Source of the DNA: Achromobacter spanius
Lineage (GTDB): Bacteria > Pseudomonadota > Gammaproteobacteria > Burkholderiales > Burkholderiaceae_B
Assembly: GCF_002812705.1 (NCBI RefSeq)
Contig: NZ_CP025030.1
Coordinates: 558,001-622,000, forward strand
Length of the DNA: 64,000 nucleotides
Reading direction: 5' to 3'
Both the position numbers and the translations under genes were made by a program. Position 1 is the first letter of the stretch. The number at the start of each line of letters is the position of its first letter. The notes under the pieces were generated by a model. The model was not told the origin of the DNA and made no database searches. It saw only the letters and a program-made list of their open reading frames with translations. Of the stretch, positions 7,768 through 60,909 are shown in pieces.

Positions 7768-7789
7768 GGCACCCCGAAGTGCCTTTTTT
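7768..7789 (+). terminator. Intrinsic terminator upstream of tctBA
   Basis: GGCAC stem (7768-7772) with GTGCC (7779-7783) and a CCCGAA loop, followed by six T residues. No full-size gene on this strand precedes it, so it ends a small transcript or acts as an attenuator. Confidence 0.75.
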
Positions 7790-7871
7790 GTGCCTGTCAC
7801 TCGCCTTTCGGCGAGTCCCATCCGGCTACAAACTTTTTTATCTACATGCTGTAAATAGGAGCCAACCAATC

Positions 7872-8336
7872 ATGCAGCTACGCAATCGACAGGACTTCTG
7901 GTCGGGGGTGATGTTCATCGCCCTTGGACTGGGATTCGCCTGGCAGGCCAGCAGCTACCAAATGGGTACTGCCGCCCGAATGGGCCCAGGGTACTTTCCT
8001 TTCTGGCTAGGCATTGTTCTGGCTTTGCTGGGCGCCATCGTGCTGCTTGGCTCGCTTTCCAAGAAAGCCCACGAGACGCATATCGATAAGTTCGATTGGC
8101 GCATTGTCTTTCTCGTCGTGGGTTCCGTGGTCTTGTACGGATTCATCCTCAAGCCGCTGGGCATCTATCTTTCGGTATTCATCCTGGTTGTCGTAAGCAG
8201 CCTGGCCAGCCATGAGTTCAGCCTGAAGGTCGCCGTTGCCAACGCGATTTTCCTGGTGCTCTTCTCGTATCTGGCATTCGTCAAGGGGCTGGGGCTGATC
8301 TTCCCGCTGTGGCCGTCCTTTCTGGGCATGAACTAA
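7872..8336 (+). CDS. Tripartite tricarboxylate transporter small subunit TctB (copy 1)
   Basis: A 154-residue membrane protein with about four hydrophobic segments. It opens LRNRQDFWSGVMFIALGLGF and contains the family's MGTAARMGPGYFPFWLG segment. TctB is the small, poorly conserved membrane subunit of TTT-type secondary carriers that import citrate or other carboxylates with a periplasmic TctC/Bug protein. The start follows AGGAG. tctA begins 13 bases downstream, so the two form an operon. There is no tctC gene beside them; the binding protein must be encoded elsewhere. Confidence 0.92.
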   Translation: MQLRNRQDFWSGVMFIALGLGFAWQASSYQMGTAARMGPGYFPFWLGIVLALLGAIVLLGSLSKKAHETHIDKFDWRIVFLVVGSVVLYGFILKPLGIYLSVFILVVVSSLASHEFSLKVAVANAIFLVLFSYLAFVKGLGLIFPLWPSFLGMN

Positions 8337-8349
8337 GGAGCAACCGGTC

Positions 8350-9854
8350 ATGGAATTGTTTGACAACCTAATGTTGGGCTTCTCGGTGGCGTTTACGCCC
8401 GAGAACCTGGCTTACGCACTGCTGGGCTGCATCCTGGGTACGCTGATTGGCGTGCTGCCGGGCATCGGCCCGGTCCCGACCATCGCGATGCTGCTGCCGA
8501 TCACGTATGTGTTGCCCCCGATTGCCGGCCTGATCATGCTGGCCGGCATCTATTACGGCGCGCAATACGGCGGTTCGACCACGGCGATTCTTGTGGCGCT
8601 GCCAGGGGAAACGTCCGCGGTGGTGACCGTGCTGGACGGTCACCAGATGGCCCGCAATGGCCGTGCGGGCGCCGCGCTGGCCATCGCCGCGCTGGGCTCG
8701 TTCTTCGCCGGTTGCGTGGCAACGCTGTTGTTGGCCGCGTTTGCTCCTCCGTTGGCTGAAGTGGCGTTCAAGTTCGGCCCCGCCGAGTACTTCTCGCTGA
8801 TGTGCCTGGGCCTGGTCGGCGCCGTGGTGTTGGCTTCGGGCTCGCTGCCCAAGGCGATCGCGATGATCATCCTGGGCCTGCTGTTGGGCATGGTGGGCAC
8901 TGACGTCAACTCGGGCGTTGCCCGCTACGACTTCGGCATTCCCGAACTGCAAGACGGTATTGACTTCGCCATCGTGGCCATGGGCGTGTTCGGCTTCGCC
9001 GAAATCATGACCAACCTGGAGCAGAAGGAAAACCGCGTCGACATCACCGACAAGATCGGCACGCTGTACCCGAACCTGCAGGAATTCAAGGAAGCCGCTC
9101 CCGCCGTGCTGCGCGGTACGGCCCTGGGTTCGGCCTTGGGTATCCTGCCGGGCGGTGGCGCCGTGCTGTCGTCGTTCGCGTCCTACACGCTGGAAAAGAA
9201 GATCTCGAAGAATCCGGAACGCTTCGGCAAGGGCCACCCGGCCGGCCTGGCTGGCCCGGAATCGGCGAACAACGCTGCCGCACAGACGTCGTTCATTCCG
9301 CTGCTGACGCTCGGTATCCCGGGTAACGCCGTGATGGCGCTGATGGTCGGCGCAATGACGATCCACAACATCCAGCCCGGCCCGCAGTCATGACGAGCCA
9401 CCCGGAGCTGTTCTGGGGCCTGATCGCTTCGATGTGGATCGGCAACCTGATGCTGGTGGTGCTGAACCTGCCGCTGATCGGCCTGTGGGTCAAGCTGCTG
9501 AAGGTGCCCTATCGCATCCTGTTCCCGGCAATTCTGGTGTTCTGCACGATCGGTGTGTATTCGTTGAACTACAACTCGTTCGACATCTTCACCACGGCCA
9601 TGTTCGGCATCATCGGCTACGTGTGGTCGAAGCTGAAGTGCGAAGGCGCACCGCTGCTGCTGGGCCTGGTTCTGGGCCCCATGATGGAAGAGAACTTCCG
9701 CCGTGCCCTGCTGCTGTCGCGTGGCGATTTCAGCACCTTCGTGACCCGTCCCCTGTCGGCTTCGTTGCTGGCCGTGGCGGCCTTCCTTGTGATCCTGGTG
9801 GCGCTGCCCGCCATCCGCAAGAAGCGCGAAGAGACCTTCGTCGAAGAAGAGTAA
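8350..9854 (+). pseudogene. TctA large subunit (copy 1), split by a one-base deletion
   Basis: Encodes a TctA-family permease of about 500 residues, but in two frames. The first part (8350-9393, 347 residues) carries the N-terminal repeat with GVLPGIGPVPTIAMLLPIT and ends at ...HNIQPGPQS. The second part (9390-9854, 154 residues) resumes exactly where the family continues, MTSHPELFWGLIASMWIGN. Restoring one G at about 9387 would give PGPQVMTSHPELFW in one frame; the intact second TctA in this window reads PGPQLITEHPDIFWGLIAS. The stop and the next ATG overlap as ATGA, so reinitiation could in principle make two polypeptides. A sequencing error is the main alternative. Confidence 0.85.
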
Positions 9855-13790: not shown

Positions 13791-15320
13791 TTAAGCCGTC
13801 TGTGGAACTTCGGGCTTGTTCTTGCCCTTACCCTTGCCACGGCGCGCGAACGCCCAAATCTGCAGGAAGATCAGCAACGCGCTGGCACCGATGAACCACG
13901 CACTGATGGGGCGCTCCACGAACACCGCCAGGTCGCCGCGCGAGAGCAGCAGCGCGCGGCGGAAGTTCTCTTCCACCATCGGCCCCAACACAAAGCCGAG
14001 CAAGATGGGGGCCACCGAGAACTCCAGTGTCATCAGGATCGCGCCGATCACGCCGAACGCCAACACTTCCCAAATCTGAAAGAGGCTGTTCTGGGTACTG
14101 AACACGCCCACCGCGATGAAGAAAAGCGCGGAAGGGAACAGATAGCGATACGGCACTTGCAGCAGTTTGACCCACACGCCGATCAGCGGCACGTTCAGCA
14201 CCATCAGCAGAACGTTCCCTACCCAGAAGCTGGCGATCAAGCCCCAGAAGATGTCCGGATGCTCGGTGATCAACTGCGGACCCGGCTGGATGCCTTGAAT
14301 CAAGAGCGCGCCCAGAATCAGCGCCATGACCGCGTCGCCCGGAATGCCCAGACTCATCGTGGGGATGAAGTCGACCTGCGTCTTCGAGTGCGACGACGCT
14401 TCGGGTGAGGCCACGCCGGCGATCATGCCGGTGCCGAACTTTTCGGGCGTCTTGGATATCTTGCGCTCCAGCGCGTAGGCGACGAACGTGGTGATGGTCG
14501 GCCCCGTGCCGGGCATGGCGCCGAACAGCGTGCCCACCGCGGTGCCGCGCACCATGGGCCAGAACGCCGTCTTCAGCTCCTGCTTTGTCGGCCGCATGTC
14601 TCGAATGCGCAGCTTGGCGCCGCTGCCGATGATGGTCATTCGGTTGACGCTCATCAAGAAGTCGGCCACACCGAACAGGCCCATCGAAATGGCCACCAGT
14701 TCCAGGCCGTCGGACAAGTCCAGCAAGCCAAACGAGAAACGGATGGTGCCCGTGTTCACATCCGTGCCGACCACGCCGCACATCAGGCCGAAGAGCGTCA
14801 TCGCAACGCCCTTGAGAGGCGACCCGCGCGACATCGTCGCCCCGGCCAACAGGCCCAGCAGCATGATCGAGAAAATTTCGGTCGGGCCGAACTTGAATGC
14901 CACTTCGACCAGCAACGGCGAGGCAAAAATCATGACGATGATGCCGACCGACGCCGCGAAGAACGAGCAGATCATCGTGATGCCCAGCGCCGTTCCCCCC
15001 TTGCCCTGCTTGGTCAATGGATAACCGTCAAGGCAGGTCACCGCGTGCGGCGGGTGCGAAGGCAGGTTGAGCAGGATCGCGCCGATGGCGCCGCCATATT
15101 GCGAGCCGTAGAAAATACCGGCCAGCATCAGGATGGCGGGCACGGGATGCATCACATACGTAAGCGGCAACAGAATCGAGATTGCCGACAAGGCGCCCAT
15201 ACCAGGCAGCACGCCGATCAGGTTGCCCACCAGCACGCCAAAGAACGACCACATCAGGTTGTGCCACTGAAACGCAACGCCGAAGCCGTACCACAGGTCC
15301 ATCAAAGATTGAGAGATCAT
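13791..15320 (-). CDS. tctA: Tripartite tricarboxylate transporter large subunit TctA (copy 2)
   Basis: A 509-residue, roughly 12-segment permease. The two internal repeats are marked by GVLPGMGALSAISILLPLTY near the N-terminus and GAMPGTGPTITTFVAYALE in the middle. IPGDAVMALILGALLIQGIQPGPQ and MVEENFRRALLLSRGDLAVF are further family signatures. It moves the substrate delivered by a TctC/Bug protein across the inner membrane, using an ion gradient. It begins six bases after tctB and lies downstream of tctDE. It is intact, unlike the first TctA copy. A citrate-type substrate is inferred from the tctDE neighbours. Confidence 0.95.
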   Translation of the reverse strand: MISQSLMDLWYGFGVAFQWHNLMWSFFGVLVGNLIGVLPGMGALSAISILLPLTYVMHPVPAILMLAGIFYGSQYGGAIGAILLNLPSHPPHAVTCLDGYPLTKQGKGGTALGITMICSFFAASVGIIVMIFASPLLVEVAFKFGPTEIFSIMLLGLLAGATMSRGSPLKGVAMTLFGLMCGVVGTDVNTGTIRFSFGLLDLSDGLELVAISMGLFGVADFLMSVNRMTIIGSGAKLRIRDMRPTKQELKTAFWPMVRGTAVGTLFGAMPGTGPTITTFVAYALERKISKTPEKFGTGMIAGVASPEASSHSKTQVDFIPTMSLGIPGDAVMALILGALLIQGIQPGPQLITEHPDIFWGLIASFWVGNVLLMVLNVPLIGVWVKLLQVPYRYLFPSALFFIAVGVFSTQNSLFQIWEVLAFGVIGAILMTLEFSVAPILLGFVLGPMVEENFRRALLLSRGDLAVFVERPISAWFIGASALLIFLQIWAFARRGKGKGKNKPEVPQTA

Positions 15321-15326
15321 GGCGCT

Positions 15327-15800
15327 TCAACCCCAACGAAACAGCGGCAACTGCAATTGCAGCGCCCACCAGAATACGACGACCGCGATCGCGGACATCG
15401 CGATAGACAGCAGGATGGCTTGCTTGATGGTGTTTTTGCGGTCACCCAACGCCGAGATGAAGACGATGGCGAAGGTGGCCGGCAACAGGCCGCCGTACTC
15501 GCCCAGCAGCAGAAACGCCAGGATGCCAAGAATGATGCAGACGCTGCCGCGCAGGTCGGGCAAGCCGTGTGCATGGCCGTCGCCCGGCGCGGGAGGCGTG
15601 GAATCACCCGACCGCGCGGACATCGCGATCAGCACGCCCGTCAATGCAAGCAGGCCGCCAAGCGCGGCCGGAAAAAATCCGGGTCCCATGTGGCTCAACG
15701 TGCCAATGTGATAGTCGGTGCCGCCGTATATCGCCCCCAACCCGATCAGGACCATCAGCGCACCGCCGTAGTAGTCCTTTCTGTTGATATTTTTTTGCAC
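15327..15800 (-). CDS. tctB: Tripartite tricarboxylate transporter small subunit TctB (copy 2)
   Basis: A 157-residue membrane protein with four hydrophobic stretches. It opens MQKNINRKDYYGGALMVLIGLG and includes the family's LSHMGPGFFPAALGGLLALTG. It pairs with the TctA gene six bases downstream. The 220 bases separating it from tctE would normally be a place for tctC, but no binding-protein gene is there. The hydrophilic segment about residues 62-82 (Pro/Asp/His-rich) is a cytosolic or periplasmic loop. Confidence 0.92.
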   Translation of the reverse strand: MQKNINRKDYYGGALMVLIGLGAIYGGTDYHIGTLSHMGPGFFPAALGGLLALTGVLIAMSARSGDSTPPAPGDGHAHGLPDLRGSVCIILGILAFLLLGEYGGLLPATFAIVFISALGDRKNTIKQAILLSIAMSAIAVVVFWWALQLQLPLFRWG

Positions 15801-56803: not shown

Positions 56804-57496
56804 ATGAGCGCCAGACAACTTCTTGATCAATTGCTGCAATCGGGCCAAGGCCTGCTTTCGGACGCCACCAACCGCGTGCAAGGCGCGACGGGCGGCTCGG
56901 CAGGCGGCAAGGGTTCGTTCCTGACCGGCCTGGGTGGGGGTGCGCTGGGCGCAGGCGCGCTGGGCTTGTTGATGGGCAGCAAGAAGGCACGCAAGATCGG
57001 CGGCAAGGTCGCCATGTATGGCGGCATGGCGGCGCTGGGCGCGCTGGCCTACCGTGCTTACGGCGACTGGCAGCGCAACCAGGCCGGTGGCGCGCAAGCC
57101 GCGCCGCCTCAAACGCTGGACCGCCTGCCCGCGCCGGAAGCCGAGCAGCACAGCAACGCCGTGCTGACCGCCATGATCGGCGCGGCCAAGGCCGACGGCC
57201 ACATCGGCCCCGAAGAACGCGGCCTGCTGGAAACCGAATTGGCCAAGCTGTCATCCGACGCGCAGGACCGCCAGTGGCTGGAAACGGAATTGTCGCGGCC
57301 GCTGGACCCGGCTGCCGTGGCCCAGTCCGCCAAAACACCCGAAATGGCCGCCGAAATGTATCTGGCCAGCCTGCTCGTCGTGGACGAGGAAAGCTATATG
57401 GAACGCGCCTATCTGGACGAATTGGCGCGTCAGCTTCGGCTGGAACCCGGCTTGAAGGAAAAGCTGGAACAGCACGCCAAAAGCGCGGTCGCCTGA
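56804..57496 (+). CDS. DUF533/TerB-like inner-membrane protein (YebE type)
   Basis: A 230-residue protein. A Gly-rich N-terminal part (about 30-95) contains two short membrane-prone segments (GGGALGAGALGLLMGSKK and VAMYGGMAALGALAYRAYG), and a C-terminal TerB-like all-helical domain (about 120-230) includes AMIGAAKADGHIGPEERG and AEMYLASLLVVDEESYMERAYLDELARQL. YebE-type proteins respond to envelope stress; the role is unknown. The start is preceded by AGGGGGAC; an earlier ATG is unlikely. Confidence 0.88.
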   Translation: MSARQLLDQLLQSGQGLLSDATNRVQGATGGSAGGKGSFLTGLGGGALGAGALGLLMGSKKARKIGGKVAMYGGMAALGALAYRAYGDWQRNQAGGAQAAPPQTLDRLPAPEAEQHSNAVLTAMIGAAKADGHIGPEERGLLETELAKLSSDAQDRQWLETELSRPLDPAAVAQSAKTPEMAAEMYLASLLVVDEESYMERAYLDELARQLRLEPGLKEKLEQHAKSAVA

Positions 57497-57548
57497 TCGG
57501 CAGAGATGGCGTCAGCACACCGCCGACGCCATCGACACCACCGCCCTG

Positions 57549-58538
57549 TCAATCCGCGCGCAGGCCGATGGACGCCGTCAACGCCGTATAGCGGTCGATG
57601 TCAGCATTGATCATCGACTGAAACTCTTTCGGTGTGCTGCTGGCGGGCGTGAAACCTTGTTCGCGCAGCGCGGTCTGCGTCTCGGGCCGCCGCACGATCT
57701 TCGTCACGGCGGCATTCAGTTTGTCGACCACGGCGCGCGGCGTGGCGGCTGGCGCCAGCAAGCCATGCCACTGGTCCAAGGCGTAGCCCGCAACGCCCTG
57801 CTCGGCCACCGTGGGCACGGTGGGCATCAACGGCGAACGCGACGGTGACGTCACCGCCAACGCGCGCAGCTTGCCCGCGGCAATCAGCGGCGCCGCGCTG
57901 GACGCCGTCACGACACCCATCGCCACCTGGCCTGCCGTCACATCCTTCAGCGCGGGGCCGCACCCCTTGTAGGGCACTTGCTGCAACACCGCGCCGCTGG
58001 CTCGCGCCAGCATTTCCCCGGCCAGGTGTTGCGGCGTGCCGTTGCCGCACGAAGCAAACGGCAAGGGTGCGCCCGGCACGGCCACGGCCAGCGCGTCCCC
58101 CAGGGATTGCAGCGGCGATGCGGCCGGCACCACGAAGACGGACGGCACGAACGCCACATTGATCACGGCGGCAAAATCCTGCTTCGGCGAAAAATCCAGG
58201 TTCCGATAGACCCCCGGATTGATAGCGAATGAACTGTTCACCATCAACACCGTGTAGCCATCTGGCGGCGCCTCGGCCACGATGCGTGCGCCGATGTTGC
58301 CGCTAGCGCCGGGCCGGTTCTCGACGATCACCGGCTGGCCCAATTCTTCTTGCAGGCTGGCGCCGATGCGACGCGCCAGCAAATCCGTGCCACCGCCCGG
58401 CGGAAATGTCACCACGATTGTGATGGGGTGCGTGGGGTAGGTGGCGTCGACCGCCGCGTCGCCCGACGGCGAATTGCCGCAGGACGCCAGCGGAAGAACG
58501 GCAGACAAGGCAAGACTAGTTCGAAGCAGGCTTTTCAT
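57549..58538 (-). CDS. Bug/TctC-family substrate-binding lipoprotein in the nadC operon
   Basis: A 329-residue tripartite-type binding protein. The Bug signatures are ITIVVTFPPGGGTDLLARRIG, ENRPGASGNIGARIVAEAPPDGYT, FASCGNGTPQHLAGEML and VPYKGCGPALKDVTAGQV. Unlike most Bug proteins, which are soluble, it has a lipobox (LASC, Cys 20). Cys164 and Cys193 replace residues that are usually Pro/Ser in the two ligand-loop motifs, so a disulfide near the pocket is possible. It begins nine bases after nadC. Together with the known nicotinate/quinolinate binding of some Bug proteins, this points to an NAD-precursor ligand (inference). Confidence 0.9.
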   Translation of the reverse strand: MKSLLRTSLALSAVLPLASCGNSPSGDAAVDATYPTHPITIVVTFPPGGGTDLLARRIGASLQEELGQPVIVENRPGASGNIGARIVAEAPPDGYTVLMVNSSFAINPGVYRNLDFSPKQDFAAVINVAFVPSVFVVPAASPLQSLGDALAVAVPGAPLPFASCGNGTPQHLAGEMLARASGAVLQQVPYKGCGPALKDVTAGQVAMGVVTASSAAPLIAAGKLRALAVTSPSRSPLMPTVPTVAEQGVAGYALDQWHGLLAPAATPRAVVDKLNAAVTKIVRRPETQTALREQGFTPASSTPKEFQSMINADIDRYTALTASIGLRAD

Positions 58539-58547
58539 GATGCGCTC

Positions 58548-59432
58548 TCAGGCATCCAGGCCGATGTCCAGCACCTTGGCGCTGTGGGTCAACCAACCGA
58601 CGGCAATCTGGTCCACGCCGGTGGCGGCCACGGCGGCGGCAGTGTCGGGAGTGATGCGGCCCGAGGCTTCGGTAATCGCGCGGCCACGCGCCATGTCGAC
58701 GGCGCGGCGCAGGTCATCCAGGCTCATGTTGTCCAGCAACACCACGTCCACGCCTAGCGACAGCGCCACTTCCAGTTGCGCCAGCGTGTCCACTTCCAGC
58801 TCGATCTTGACCATGTGGCCCACGCTCGCGCGCGCACGCTGCACGGCGTTGGCAACGCCGCCCGCCAGCGCAATGTGGTTGTCTTTGATGAGCACGGCGT
58901 CATCCAGGCCGAAACGGTGATTGCTGCCCCCGCCCACGCGCACCGCGTACTTTTGCACGGCGCGCAAGCCAGGCAGGGTCTTGCGGGTGCAGGTCACGCG
59001 CGCGCCGTAGCTGGAAATGGCACGCGCAATCGACGCCGTGGCGCTGGCCACACCACTCAGGTGGCACAGGAAGTTCAGCGCCACCCGCTCCGCGGTCAGC
59101 ATCGCCCGGGCATTGCCATGCAAACGTGCAATCTCGGTTCCGGGTGACAGATCGGCACCGTCGCGCAGCGATGCGCTGAAGCGGATGCCCGGGTCCATGG
59201 CTTGAAACGCCAGGCGCGCCAGGTCCAAGCCGGCCAACACGCCCTCTTGGCGCGACACCAACCGGGTTTCCGCGATGGCGTCGGCCGGCACGATTGCGTC
59301 GGTGGTCAGGTCGCCGGCGCGGCCCAGGTCTTCAAGCAAGGCCGCTTGAACCAGCGGCACGAGCATGATGTCCGGCAGAGGCGCGACATTCAGGCGAAAG
59401 GCATTCGTAGGCACTTCGGCATTAATGCTCAT
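58548..59432 (-). CDS. nadC: Nicotinate-nucleotide pyrophosphorylase (quinolinate phosphoribosyltransferase)
   Basis: A 294-residue enzyme that converts quinolinate and PRPP to nicotinate mononucleotide in NAD synthesis. Diagnostic segments are ALLEDLGRAGDLTTDAIVP, FLCHLSGVAS, CTRKTLPGLRAVQKYAV and VRVGGGSNHRFGLDDAVLIKDNHI. nadA and nadB are not in the window. The promoter region carries a 21-base palindrome, so expression is probably repressed by the adjacent Nudix-type regulator. The bug gene follows in operon. Confidence 0.96.
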   Translation of the reverse strand: MSINAEVPTNAFRLNVAPLPDIMLVPLVQAALLEDLGRAGDLTTDAIVPADAIAETRLVSRQEGVLAGLDLARLAFQAMDPGIRFSASLRDGADLSPGTEIARLHGNARAMLTAERVALNFLCHLSGVASATASIARAISSYGARVTCTRKTLPGLRAVQKYAVRVGGGSNHRFGLDDAVLIKDNHIALAGGVANAVQRARASVGHMVKIELEVDTLAQLEVALSLGVDVVLLDNMSLDDLRRAVDMARGRAITEASGRITPDTAAAVAATGVDQIAVGWLTHSAKVLDIGLDA

Positions 59433-59480
59433 TTTGAGTATTTATGAGTTAAAAAAAGGCGCGCAGAGGTTGCGCACCAG

Positions 59481-59511
59481 TTATGCTAAATACGAGCATA
59501 AACCTTGTCAA
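59481..59511 (-). promoter_or_regulatory. nadC promoter with overlapping 21-base operator palindrome
   Basis: On the minus strand TTGACA (59511-59506) and TAGCAT (59488-59483) are exactly 17 bases apart, a near-consensus sigma-70 promoter. TTATGCT-N7-AGCATAA (59481-59501) overlaps the spacer and the -10 box, so a bound repressor would block polymerase. It is 49 bases upstream of the nadC start and 14 bases from the stop of the NadQ/NrtR-type gene, its most likely ligand. Confidence 0.75.
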
Positions 59512-59514
59512 GCG

Positions 59515-60501
59515 TCACAAGGTTCGTGACAAGGGCAATTTGCTACCGGCAATGGCGCGTTCCAGCAGCACGTCGCGCCGGAAACGGAACAGCTTGGCCG
59601 GCCGGCCCGCCGTGCCCGTCGCCATCTCGCCCGTTTCTTCAACCAACGCCTGCTGTTCGATCAGGCGACGGAAATTCTGTTTATGCAGCGCCCTGCCCGC
59701 CAAGGCCTCGACCGCCAATTGCAGCTGCAGCAAGGTGAACTGGGCCGGCATCAATTCAAACACCACGGGCCGATACTTGATCTTGGCACGCAAGCGCGCA
59801 ATACCGGTCGCCAGAATGCGGCGGTGATCGTGGCGCATCGGCTCGCCCGGCAACACCGCCTTGCCTCCCCCGCGCCGCACGGCCTCGGGCACCGCCCCCG
59901 CCTCGAACAGAAGCTCGTAGCGCTGCAACACCATATCTTCATTCCATGCAGCGCCGTCCAGGCCGAAGGTAATGGCGGCGCGCTGCTGGCGGCGCGTGCG
60001 CACGGCGGGGTCAGCACTGGCCTCGCACCATTGCGCCAACCACGGCACGATCACATCCTCGACCAATGCGGGCGCACCGGCACGCCGGTCTTCCCACGGG
60101 AAATAGCGGTACCAGTCTTGCCAGCCCACCTGCGCCACGCCGGTTTCGCCGGCTTCGCGCGTCAGGCCCAGATAGCTGACCGACATGACGCGCGCGCCGG
60201 ATTCGTCGGAACGGTCGCCGTCGGCAAAGGTGTAGAGCTGCTCAACATAGCCCAGCGGATGATGGGTTTGCGTTTCCACCCAGGCGCGCAGGCCGGCCTG
60301 CAAGGAACGATGCGATAGTTCGAACGGCCCGGCCGGCAAGGCGCTTGCGTCATCCGTGGTCAACACGCGCGGCTCGCCATTGGTCACGGCCACCAGCACG
60401 GCGACGAGTTCGGTATGGACGGAGCGTTCGACGGATTCGGTCAAGGATGGAGGTCGTGAAGGGTGGACGAAGGGGTGAGCAAAGGGCGTAAGCAAGCGCA
60501 T
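59515..60501 (-). CDS. NadQ/NrtR-type Nudix-like regulator of NAD metabolism
   Basis: A 328-residue protein. A Nudix-fold N-terminal domain (about 25-220) lacks the catalytic REXXEE box: the equivalent region, SLQAGLRAWVETQTHHPLG, has none of the metal-binding glutamates. A C-terminal winged helix of NrtR type follows (about 240-320, KYRPVVFELMPAQFTLLQLQLAVEAL and KQNFRRLIEQQALVEETGE). Such proteins sense NAD-related metabolites and repress NAD synthesis genes. The gene directly precedes nadC. The start at MRLLTPF is chosen because the upstream frame has no similarity. I avoid a symbol because NadQ and NrtR are not separable here. Confidence 0.88.
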   Translation of the reverse strand: MRLLTPFAHPFVHPSRPPSLTESVERSVHTELVAVLVAVTNGEPRVLTTDDASALPAGPFELSHRSLQAGLRAWVETQTHHPLGYVEQLYTFADGDRSDESGARVMSVSYLGLTREAGETGVAQVGWQDWYRYFPWEDRRAGAPALVEDVIVPWLAQWCEASADPAVRTRRQQRAAITFGLDGAAWNEDMVLQRYELLFEAGAVPEAVRRGGGKAVLPGEPMRHDHRRILATGIARLRAKIKYRPVVFELMPAQFTLLQLQLAVEALAGRALHKQNFRRLIEQQALVEETGEMATGTAGRPAKLFRFRRDVLLERAIAGSKLPLSRTL

Positions 60502-60678
60502 TGCGCAAGCCTCGCCGCGAAACGGCGAGGAGCCGGAATTATAAGGTTCTGGCGCTGCAACAGCCCCTTGCAAACGTGACAGGCCGGATGGCCGCCAGAG
60601 CGTGCCCAAGGTCTAAGATAAATCGTAGGTATACAGGCGCGTCGCCATCCTGGGACGCCCGCAAGCGGAGCAAGAGCC

Positions 60679-60909
60679 ATGTTGAAAACTGCCCCCGACC
60701 CCCAAGCCCCGACTAACCCCAAGGCGGTCGACCCACGCCCGCCCACCGACCCGCGCAAAGGTACGGAAACGCTGCCGATGCCGGACCAAAGCAAGCAAGT
60801 GGCAGGCATGCCACGCGACGGACGCGCCATTGCGCAACCCGGCGAACCCGGCGTCATCACGCCCGAGGACGATGTGCTGGATACGTCTTACGAGAACCGC
60901 AAAACCTGA
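60679..60909 (+). CDS. Small Pro/Asp-rich hypothetical protein
   Basis: A 76-residue hydrophilic protein, rich in Pro, Asp, Thr and Lys, with no hydrophobic segment and probably disordered (MLKTAPDPQAPTNPKAVDP). GGAGCAAGAGCC precedes the ATG. The frame is open and codon use looks GC3-rich like its neighbours, but the low complexity makes chance harder to exclude. It ends in EDDVLDTSYENRKT. No function is recognised. It is separated from the pilus chaperone by about 190 bases. Confidence 0.65.
   Translation: MLKTAPDPQAPTNPKAVDPRPPTDPRKGTETLPMPDQSKQVAGMPRDGRAIAQPGEPGVITPEDDVLDTSYENRKT

Follow-up and report, generated by a model that had tools for sequence, protein, structure and literature searches.

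A conserved nadQ–nadC–bug unit in Achromobacter: probable quinolinate salvage with a predicted lipoprotein receptor

In the 64-kb stretch of the Achromobacter spanius genome that was analysed (hereafter the window; host genome 6,425,783 bases), nadQ, nadC and a gene for a TctC-family solute-binding (Bug) protein stand consecutively on the minus strand. The best explanation for this arrangement, and one in which we place considerable confidence, is a NadQ-controlled unit for the salvage of quinolinate. The unit itself is real, conserved and previously described: for each of the 80 Bug69-cluster members, which come from Bordetella and Achromobacter, bug69 was reported to follow nadQ and nadC in one operon, with B. 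pertussis Tohama I as the exception (Sorci 2024, PMC11452294). Thus, both the unit, including its occurrence in Achromobacter, and the doubt as to whether it is needed for uptake are already in print, while what is added to that account is the lipoprotein form of the receptor, an operator-like site at the nadC start codon and the mutual exclusion with NadA. With Bug69 of B. pertussis, the window's protein shares the gene order, the NadQ and NadC neighbours and most of the pocket residues, and Achromobacter is listed in cluster 1 of that study.

The observations at the sequence level are the gene order, the operator-like sites, a lipobox, the pocket residues and the lack of NadA and of any NadB over the cut-off; from these we infer that NadQ controls the unit in response to a signal, that the protein is lipid-modified, that the genes are co-transcribed, and that transport takes place through a carrier. 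Quinolinate binding by the Achromobacter protein would follow, by analogy, from the in vitro binding by B. pertussis Bug69. The first-pass annotation had proposed a possible NAD-precursor uptake unit. Good support for a link to NAD-precursor capture comes from the binding of the published relative, the NadQ-type sites, the missing de novo genes and the conserved pocket; a role in uptake is less secure, as the protein has no known membrane partner and a B. bronchiseptica bug69 knock-out, as related in PMC11452294, grew on quinolinate without defect.

Layout and control region of the locus

The identity of NadC, judged from its match to TIGR00078, is certain, and the Bug protein matches PF03401 (TctC) over practically the whole profile (E 4.3e-68, residues 55–326, profile positions 2–274 of 274). 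The upstream gene encodes a C-terminal NrtR-type winged helix of the kind described for NadQ in the available text of PMC5343134; its open reading frame as listed opens with TTG, and the real start probably lies further inside (Table 1). The nadC stop and the ATG of the Bug gene are separated by nine bases (58539–58547), so that the first-pass statement on this spacing is borne out by the coordinates of the reading frames, and it is from the spacing that co-transcription of the two genes may be presumed.

Table 1. Features of the nadQ–nadC–bug locus, in window coordinates (residue numbers in the last line)
Feature	Position	Strand	Remarks
Bug69-type TctC-family solute-binding protein, predicted lipoprotein signal	57549–58538	-	329 aa
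nadC, quinolinate phosphoribosyltransferase	58548–59432	-	294 aa; TIGR00078 320.9 bits (cut-off 198.4)
Predicted NadQ operator 2, ATACTCAAAATGAGCAT	59425–59441	-	covers the nadC start codon; exact core as given in the available text of PMC5343134
Terminator-like hairpin, then seven T	59458–59478	-	between predicted promoter and nadC
Predicted NadQ operator 1, TTATGCTCGTATTTAGCATAA	59481–59501	-	overlaps spacer and -10 of predicted promoter; one deviation from the core as given in the same text
Predicted sigma-70 promoter of nadC–bug, TTGACA-N17-TAGCAT	59483–59511	-	from promoter scan
nadQ, predicted NAD regulator	59515–60609	-	C-terminal NrtR-type winged helix (NrtR_WHD matched)
Pocket positions of the Bug69-type protein	F45, G50, T51, N101, S102, S103, C164, Q170, C193, T211, D255		

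The first-pass annotation had placed both genes under a putatively NAD-regulated promoter, and this holds as a prediction. The promoter scan of positions 57300–60900 gave one promoter against 0.7 expected by shuffling, which is no better than chance, and the case for the promoter therefore rests on conservation: it is present together with both operator-like sites in 32/32 loci of the genus (here and below, the genus as assigned by the search tool). Among 20 loci from other genera with nadC, both sites are found in 13, the start-codon site in 14 and the promoter in 14.

Like the NadQ regulon as presented in the available text of PMC5343134, the nadC sites fit the consensus ttATRCTCannntGAGYATaa given there; they differ from it in that the sole exact core match here is at nadC. 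In the whole 6.43-Mb genome, ATRCTCNNNNNGAGYAT is matched exactly only by predicted operator 2. With at most one mismatch to the core, 14 genomic sites are found (two at nadC and 12 elsewhere) versus eight for the reversed pattern. Looser scans give no enrichment, either with at most two mismatches in the window (three sites versus 4.56) or with at most three mismatches allowed relative to operator 1 genome-wide (50 versus 58, where the exact match at operator 1 is expected, the pattern having been derived from it). A NadQ regulon limited to this one operon is likely in this genome.

The hairpin sits right where the nadC transcript is predicted to begin and is conserved in the alignment of 32 loci of the genus. 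Its folding energy is -14.5 kcal/mol (z -5.27). The terminator scan as a whole returned two candidates versus 3.5 by chance. Double changes occur at three of its pairs, in one sequence each, a level reached by 7/500 shuffles, and the covariation is weak because its score of 0.065 is no better than the 0.067 obtained with the partner slid by 2. The hairpin may serve to end nadQ transcripts or to cap the nadC mRNA. That the leader holds a known RNA element was also considered and rejected: the sole Rfam match (RF02959) scored 24 bits versus a gathering score of 40.6, lies on the opposite strand inside nadC and was taken as chance.

Lipoprotein signal and ligand pocket of the receptor

The N-terminus of the Bug protein (MKSLLRTSLALSAVLPLASC, followed by GN) fits a lipobox (LASC-GN, Cys20), with the positively charged start, the hydrophobic stretch and the cysteine of such a signal, and a lipid at Cys20 appears to anchor the protein in a membrane. 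Loci were scored by a rule that combines a start codon, K or R with no acidic residue, a hydrophobic run and [LVI][ASTG][GAS]C. It is passed by 32/32 loci of the genus versus 0/24 loci from other genera in the family sample, two of which (L023 and L032) have the motif and fail the rule, and the motif that follows the cysteine, GN[SP]PSG, is kept in the genus. Of the 129 TctC paralogues of the genome, 47 were sampled in two sets, with 0/7 and 1/40 passing; the single one that passes, a doubtful case (L171, with WTAPAAAA after the cysteine), was judged to be secretory. Of other paralogues with a comparable motif, L177 has a VAAC too near the start, and in L176 and L204 the motif lies upstream of the likely start. 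The first-pass remark that this Bug protein is a lipoprotein was thus correct, and it is the sole part of that reading, as regards Achromobacter Bug69, that was not found in print: lipoprotein, lipobox and signal peptide each have zero occurrences in the main text of PMC11452294, and no paper on a lipoprotein form of Bug69 was found in the open-licence literature searched.

Among the 40 named loci whose identity is 55% or above, 25 pass the rule: 24/25 from Achromobacter (the sole exception, L117, has an N-terminus that was not read), 1/2 from Comamonas, 0/4 from Bordetella and 0/9 from others. The signal in Achromobacter, being of lipoprotein type, therefore differs from that of Bordetella Bug69, for which 4/4 named loci fail. 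Among the 120 close proteins listed, of which those at 95–96% identity carry the name Achromobacter, a CGN lipobox is present in 75; of the remainder, 16 begin at an inner methionine (MDAAYP), P0008 has a short start and the others are without a lipobox, as is P0118, labelled 'unclassified Ach' and apparently from genome G120 of another genus of the family. In Comamonas the picture is mixed: four proteins from Comamonas or Comamonas-like bacteria (P0121–P0124) carry A[AG]CGN[QH]KA, one locus (L108) passes the rule, another (L107) has LLAC and fails, and one protein named Comamonas sp. (P0151) is without a lipobox. An origin of the lipobox in Achromobacter only is ruled out, since some Comamonas proteins carry one.

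The closest solved relative of the window's protein is Bug27 (PDB 2qpq; E 2.3e-118, aligned residues 33–329), a member of the same TctC family with the same two cysteines. Cys164 and Cys193, which the first-pass annotation had put in the ligand-loop motifs, correspond to Cys136 and Cys165 of Bug27, which are both part of the docking site as published, and their equivalents are both absent from 7/7 paralogues of the same genome. These two cysteines, together with F45, G50, T51, N101, S102, Q170 and T211, are invariant in 56/56 Bug69-like loci (32 of the genus, 24 others), and position 103 is occupied by S in 54 loci and by T in two. The published quinolinate contacts are kept except for one, D255 in the window's protein standing for N227 of Bug27; Asp is found there in 52/56 loci (32/32 of the genus, 20/24 others). 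PMC11452294 gives this contact, with the ring nitrogen, as Asn228; its Phe12 and Asn228 do not match the letters of the 2qpq chain, and the nearest residues, F16 and N227, the latter the one Asn beside position 228, were used instead, so that the assignment of N227/D255 as the ring-nitrogen position is tentative. The exchange may change the hold on the pyridine nitrogen.

The KD for quinolinate is about 70 nM for B. pertussis Bug69 and 136 nM for Bug27; in thermal shift both markedly prefer quinolinate to nicotinate, while by fluorescence quinolinate is bound by Bug27 only about threefold better than earlier values for nicotinate (all PMC11452294). Quinolinate is favoured over nicotinate as the ligand, and nicotinate or nicotinamide as the main ligand was discounted in view of the marked preference in thermal shift (PMC11452294).

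Quinolinate supply and the readings of the unit

No NadA was found in the host genome by a search that was positive in 12/14 control genomes. The best hit of the NadB model (359.8 bits versus a cut-off of 452.75) was rejected, being SdhA (TIGR01816, 926 bits, cut-off 727.35). Across the 74 nadC-positive genomes of the family, Bug69 and NadA show a tendency to mutual exclusion: 28 genomes have Bug69 without NadA, 28 NadA without Bug69, nine both and nine neither (Fisher p 2e-5, uncorrected for kinship). The exclusion is also seen at the genus level (Spearman -0.61 over 26 genera, p 0.0009) and is marginal within genera (CMH z -1.94); in the genus sample, 5/6 genomes are without NadA and one (G098) has both NadA and Bug69. 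The lack of NadA and of a NadB over the cut-off, together with this comparative backing, supports the salvage of quinolinate from outside.

In the mechanism that we propose, NadQ would sense a shortage of NAD or of an intermediate and release both operators, one at the nadC promoter and one at its start codon, so that the nadC–bug mRNA could be produced. The Bug69-type protein would be exported, receive lipid on Cys20, be kept on the periplasmic side of a membrane and, thus anchored, capture quinolinate there; an inner-membrane carrier, shared or unknown, would import the ligand, and NadC would convert the imported quinolinate to nicotinate mononucleotide. By the sorting rule of E. coli, Gly at +2 would direct the protein to the outer membrane. 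A bolder version, which we advance tentatively and as doubtful, is that in Achromobacter and some Comamonas a stand-alone lipid-anchored quinolinate receptor, probably at the inner face of the outer membrane, together with NadC and perhaps a one-operon NadQ regulon, replaces the missing de novo pathway with no dedicated permease.

Several points count against a salvage unit: the growth of the knock-out on quinolinate and the advantage of only about threefold for that ligand by fluorescence (PMC11452294), the lack of an adjacent membrane partner, D255 in place of N227, the presence of a 3-hydroxyanthranilate dioxygenase gene and of a nicotinate phosphoribosyltransferase, which the host genome also encodes, and the distribution of NadA, which is present in 9/37 Bug-positive genomes (one of them in this genus), lacking in 9/37 Bug-negative nadC genomes and only marginally exclusive with Bug69 within genera.

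As for the membrane partner, neither tctA nor tctB lies beside the Bug gene, which is flanked by nadC and by a gene for a DUF533 protein, and in this the locus differs from the TctABC tripartite tricarboxylate transporter, with which it shares TctC homology. The first-pass claim that TctAB partners are lacking thus holds for the neighbourhood and fails for the window, which has two tctBA sets (7779–9854, plus, with a split tctA; 13791–15800, minus). With seven tctA loci in the genome (nine matches, two of the loci being split), a shared carrier is possible. Among the 130 TctC matches of the genome, the one closest to the window's Bug protein is 45% identical, and hence there is no Bug27-like copy; a second Bug copy at 57–59% occurs in 2/43 genomes of the genus. 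The redundancy invoked for the silent Bordetella knock-out should therefore not apply here. Two testable points are thereby added to the published prediction, namely the lack of a Bug27-like backup copy and a lipid anchor without TctAB, and a lipid-anchored TctC receptor with no TctAB neighbours poses the question of how its ligand is handed on. The split tctA in the window comprises overlapping frames (8350–9393 and 9390–9854, plus), each matching part of the TctA profile, and another tctA of the genome (G000:C1:4966-6223) is split likewise.

Of the alternatives, the one that survives best, unlikely as we hold it to be, is that the protein is a quinolinate-binding sensor or buffer that signals to a kinase or chemoreceptor instead of serving as a transport receptor. 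The non-adjacency of TctAB and the growth of the bug69 knock-out fit such a role, signalling is raised by PMC11452294 itself, a receptor working on its own would be well served by a lipid anchor, and another TctC protein, BctC, activates a sensor kinase according to the available part of PMC9602780. However, no sensor gene is present among the neighbours examined, and the NadQ-type sites held in common with nadC and the NadA exclusion fit nutrient capture better.

Less probable still is the internal feeding of NadC via 3-hydroxyanthranilate breakdown, with the Bug protein binding another carboxylate. The dioxygenase gene (G000:C1:2448374-2448820), which belongs to a family found in 0/14 control genomes by the same search and which also passed the NCBIfam model, is a possible source of quinolinate inside the cell. 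However, its context looks catabolic: in the stretch L076:5847-8836, a probable catabolic cluster to judge from its genes, it is accompanied by an Amidohydro_2 protein and a Peripla_BP_6 protein beside ABC-transporter-like reading frames. The Amidohydro_2 neighbour could possibly be an ACMS decarboxylase that diverts the product, a name that NCBIfam does not give. Moreover, the dioxygenase is found in 3/6 sampled genomes of the genus while nadC and Bug69 are found in 6/6, and the Bug pocket residues are conserved.

Adjacency of nadC and Bug69 across genomes

A check proposed beforehand was whether the adjacency is confined to this strain, and it is not: nadC lies upstream of the Bug gene in 32/32 loci of the genus, with nadQ in 30/32 (1.5-kb flank), and in 25/25 named Achromobacter loci, the two sets sharing many contigs and thus not being independent. 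In the genus, a Bug69 match at E<=1e-105 is present in 42/43 genomes (the exception, G138, has a contamination of 6), and 32 of these 42 supplied the loci analysed. In the family, the same threshold gave 43 matches in 37/121 genomes, with 30 loci taken into the analysis; nadC is present in 37/37 of these genomes and in 37/84 of those without a Bug69-like protein. In 31 of the 37 genomes, the two genes share a strand and lie no more than 300 bp apart; they lie within 3 kb in three more and elsewhere in three; one of the pairs within 3 kb is in opposite orientation, and its nadC is only 43% like that of the window.

A total of 78 named loci were compared with a 2.5-kb flank: of the 40 with an identity of at least 55% (L079–L118), nadC is upstream in 39 and nadQ in 35, while of the 38 at 41% or less, nadC is upstream in none. 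That the adjacency reflects chance or shared history with no functional link could draw on the very large number of TctC genes (130 matches in this genome), yet it is already contradicted by these counts, with nadC as a neighbour only in the Bug69 branch (39/40 versus 0/38 distant relatives), and is hardly credible. In the two Comamonas loci among the 40 (L107 and L108), NadC is 82–83% identical to that of the window, versus 73–76% in the four named Bordetella loci, and the Bug protein is only 60–63% identical to the window's; horizontal transfer is possible.
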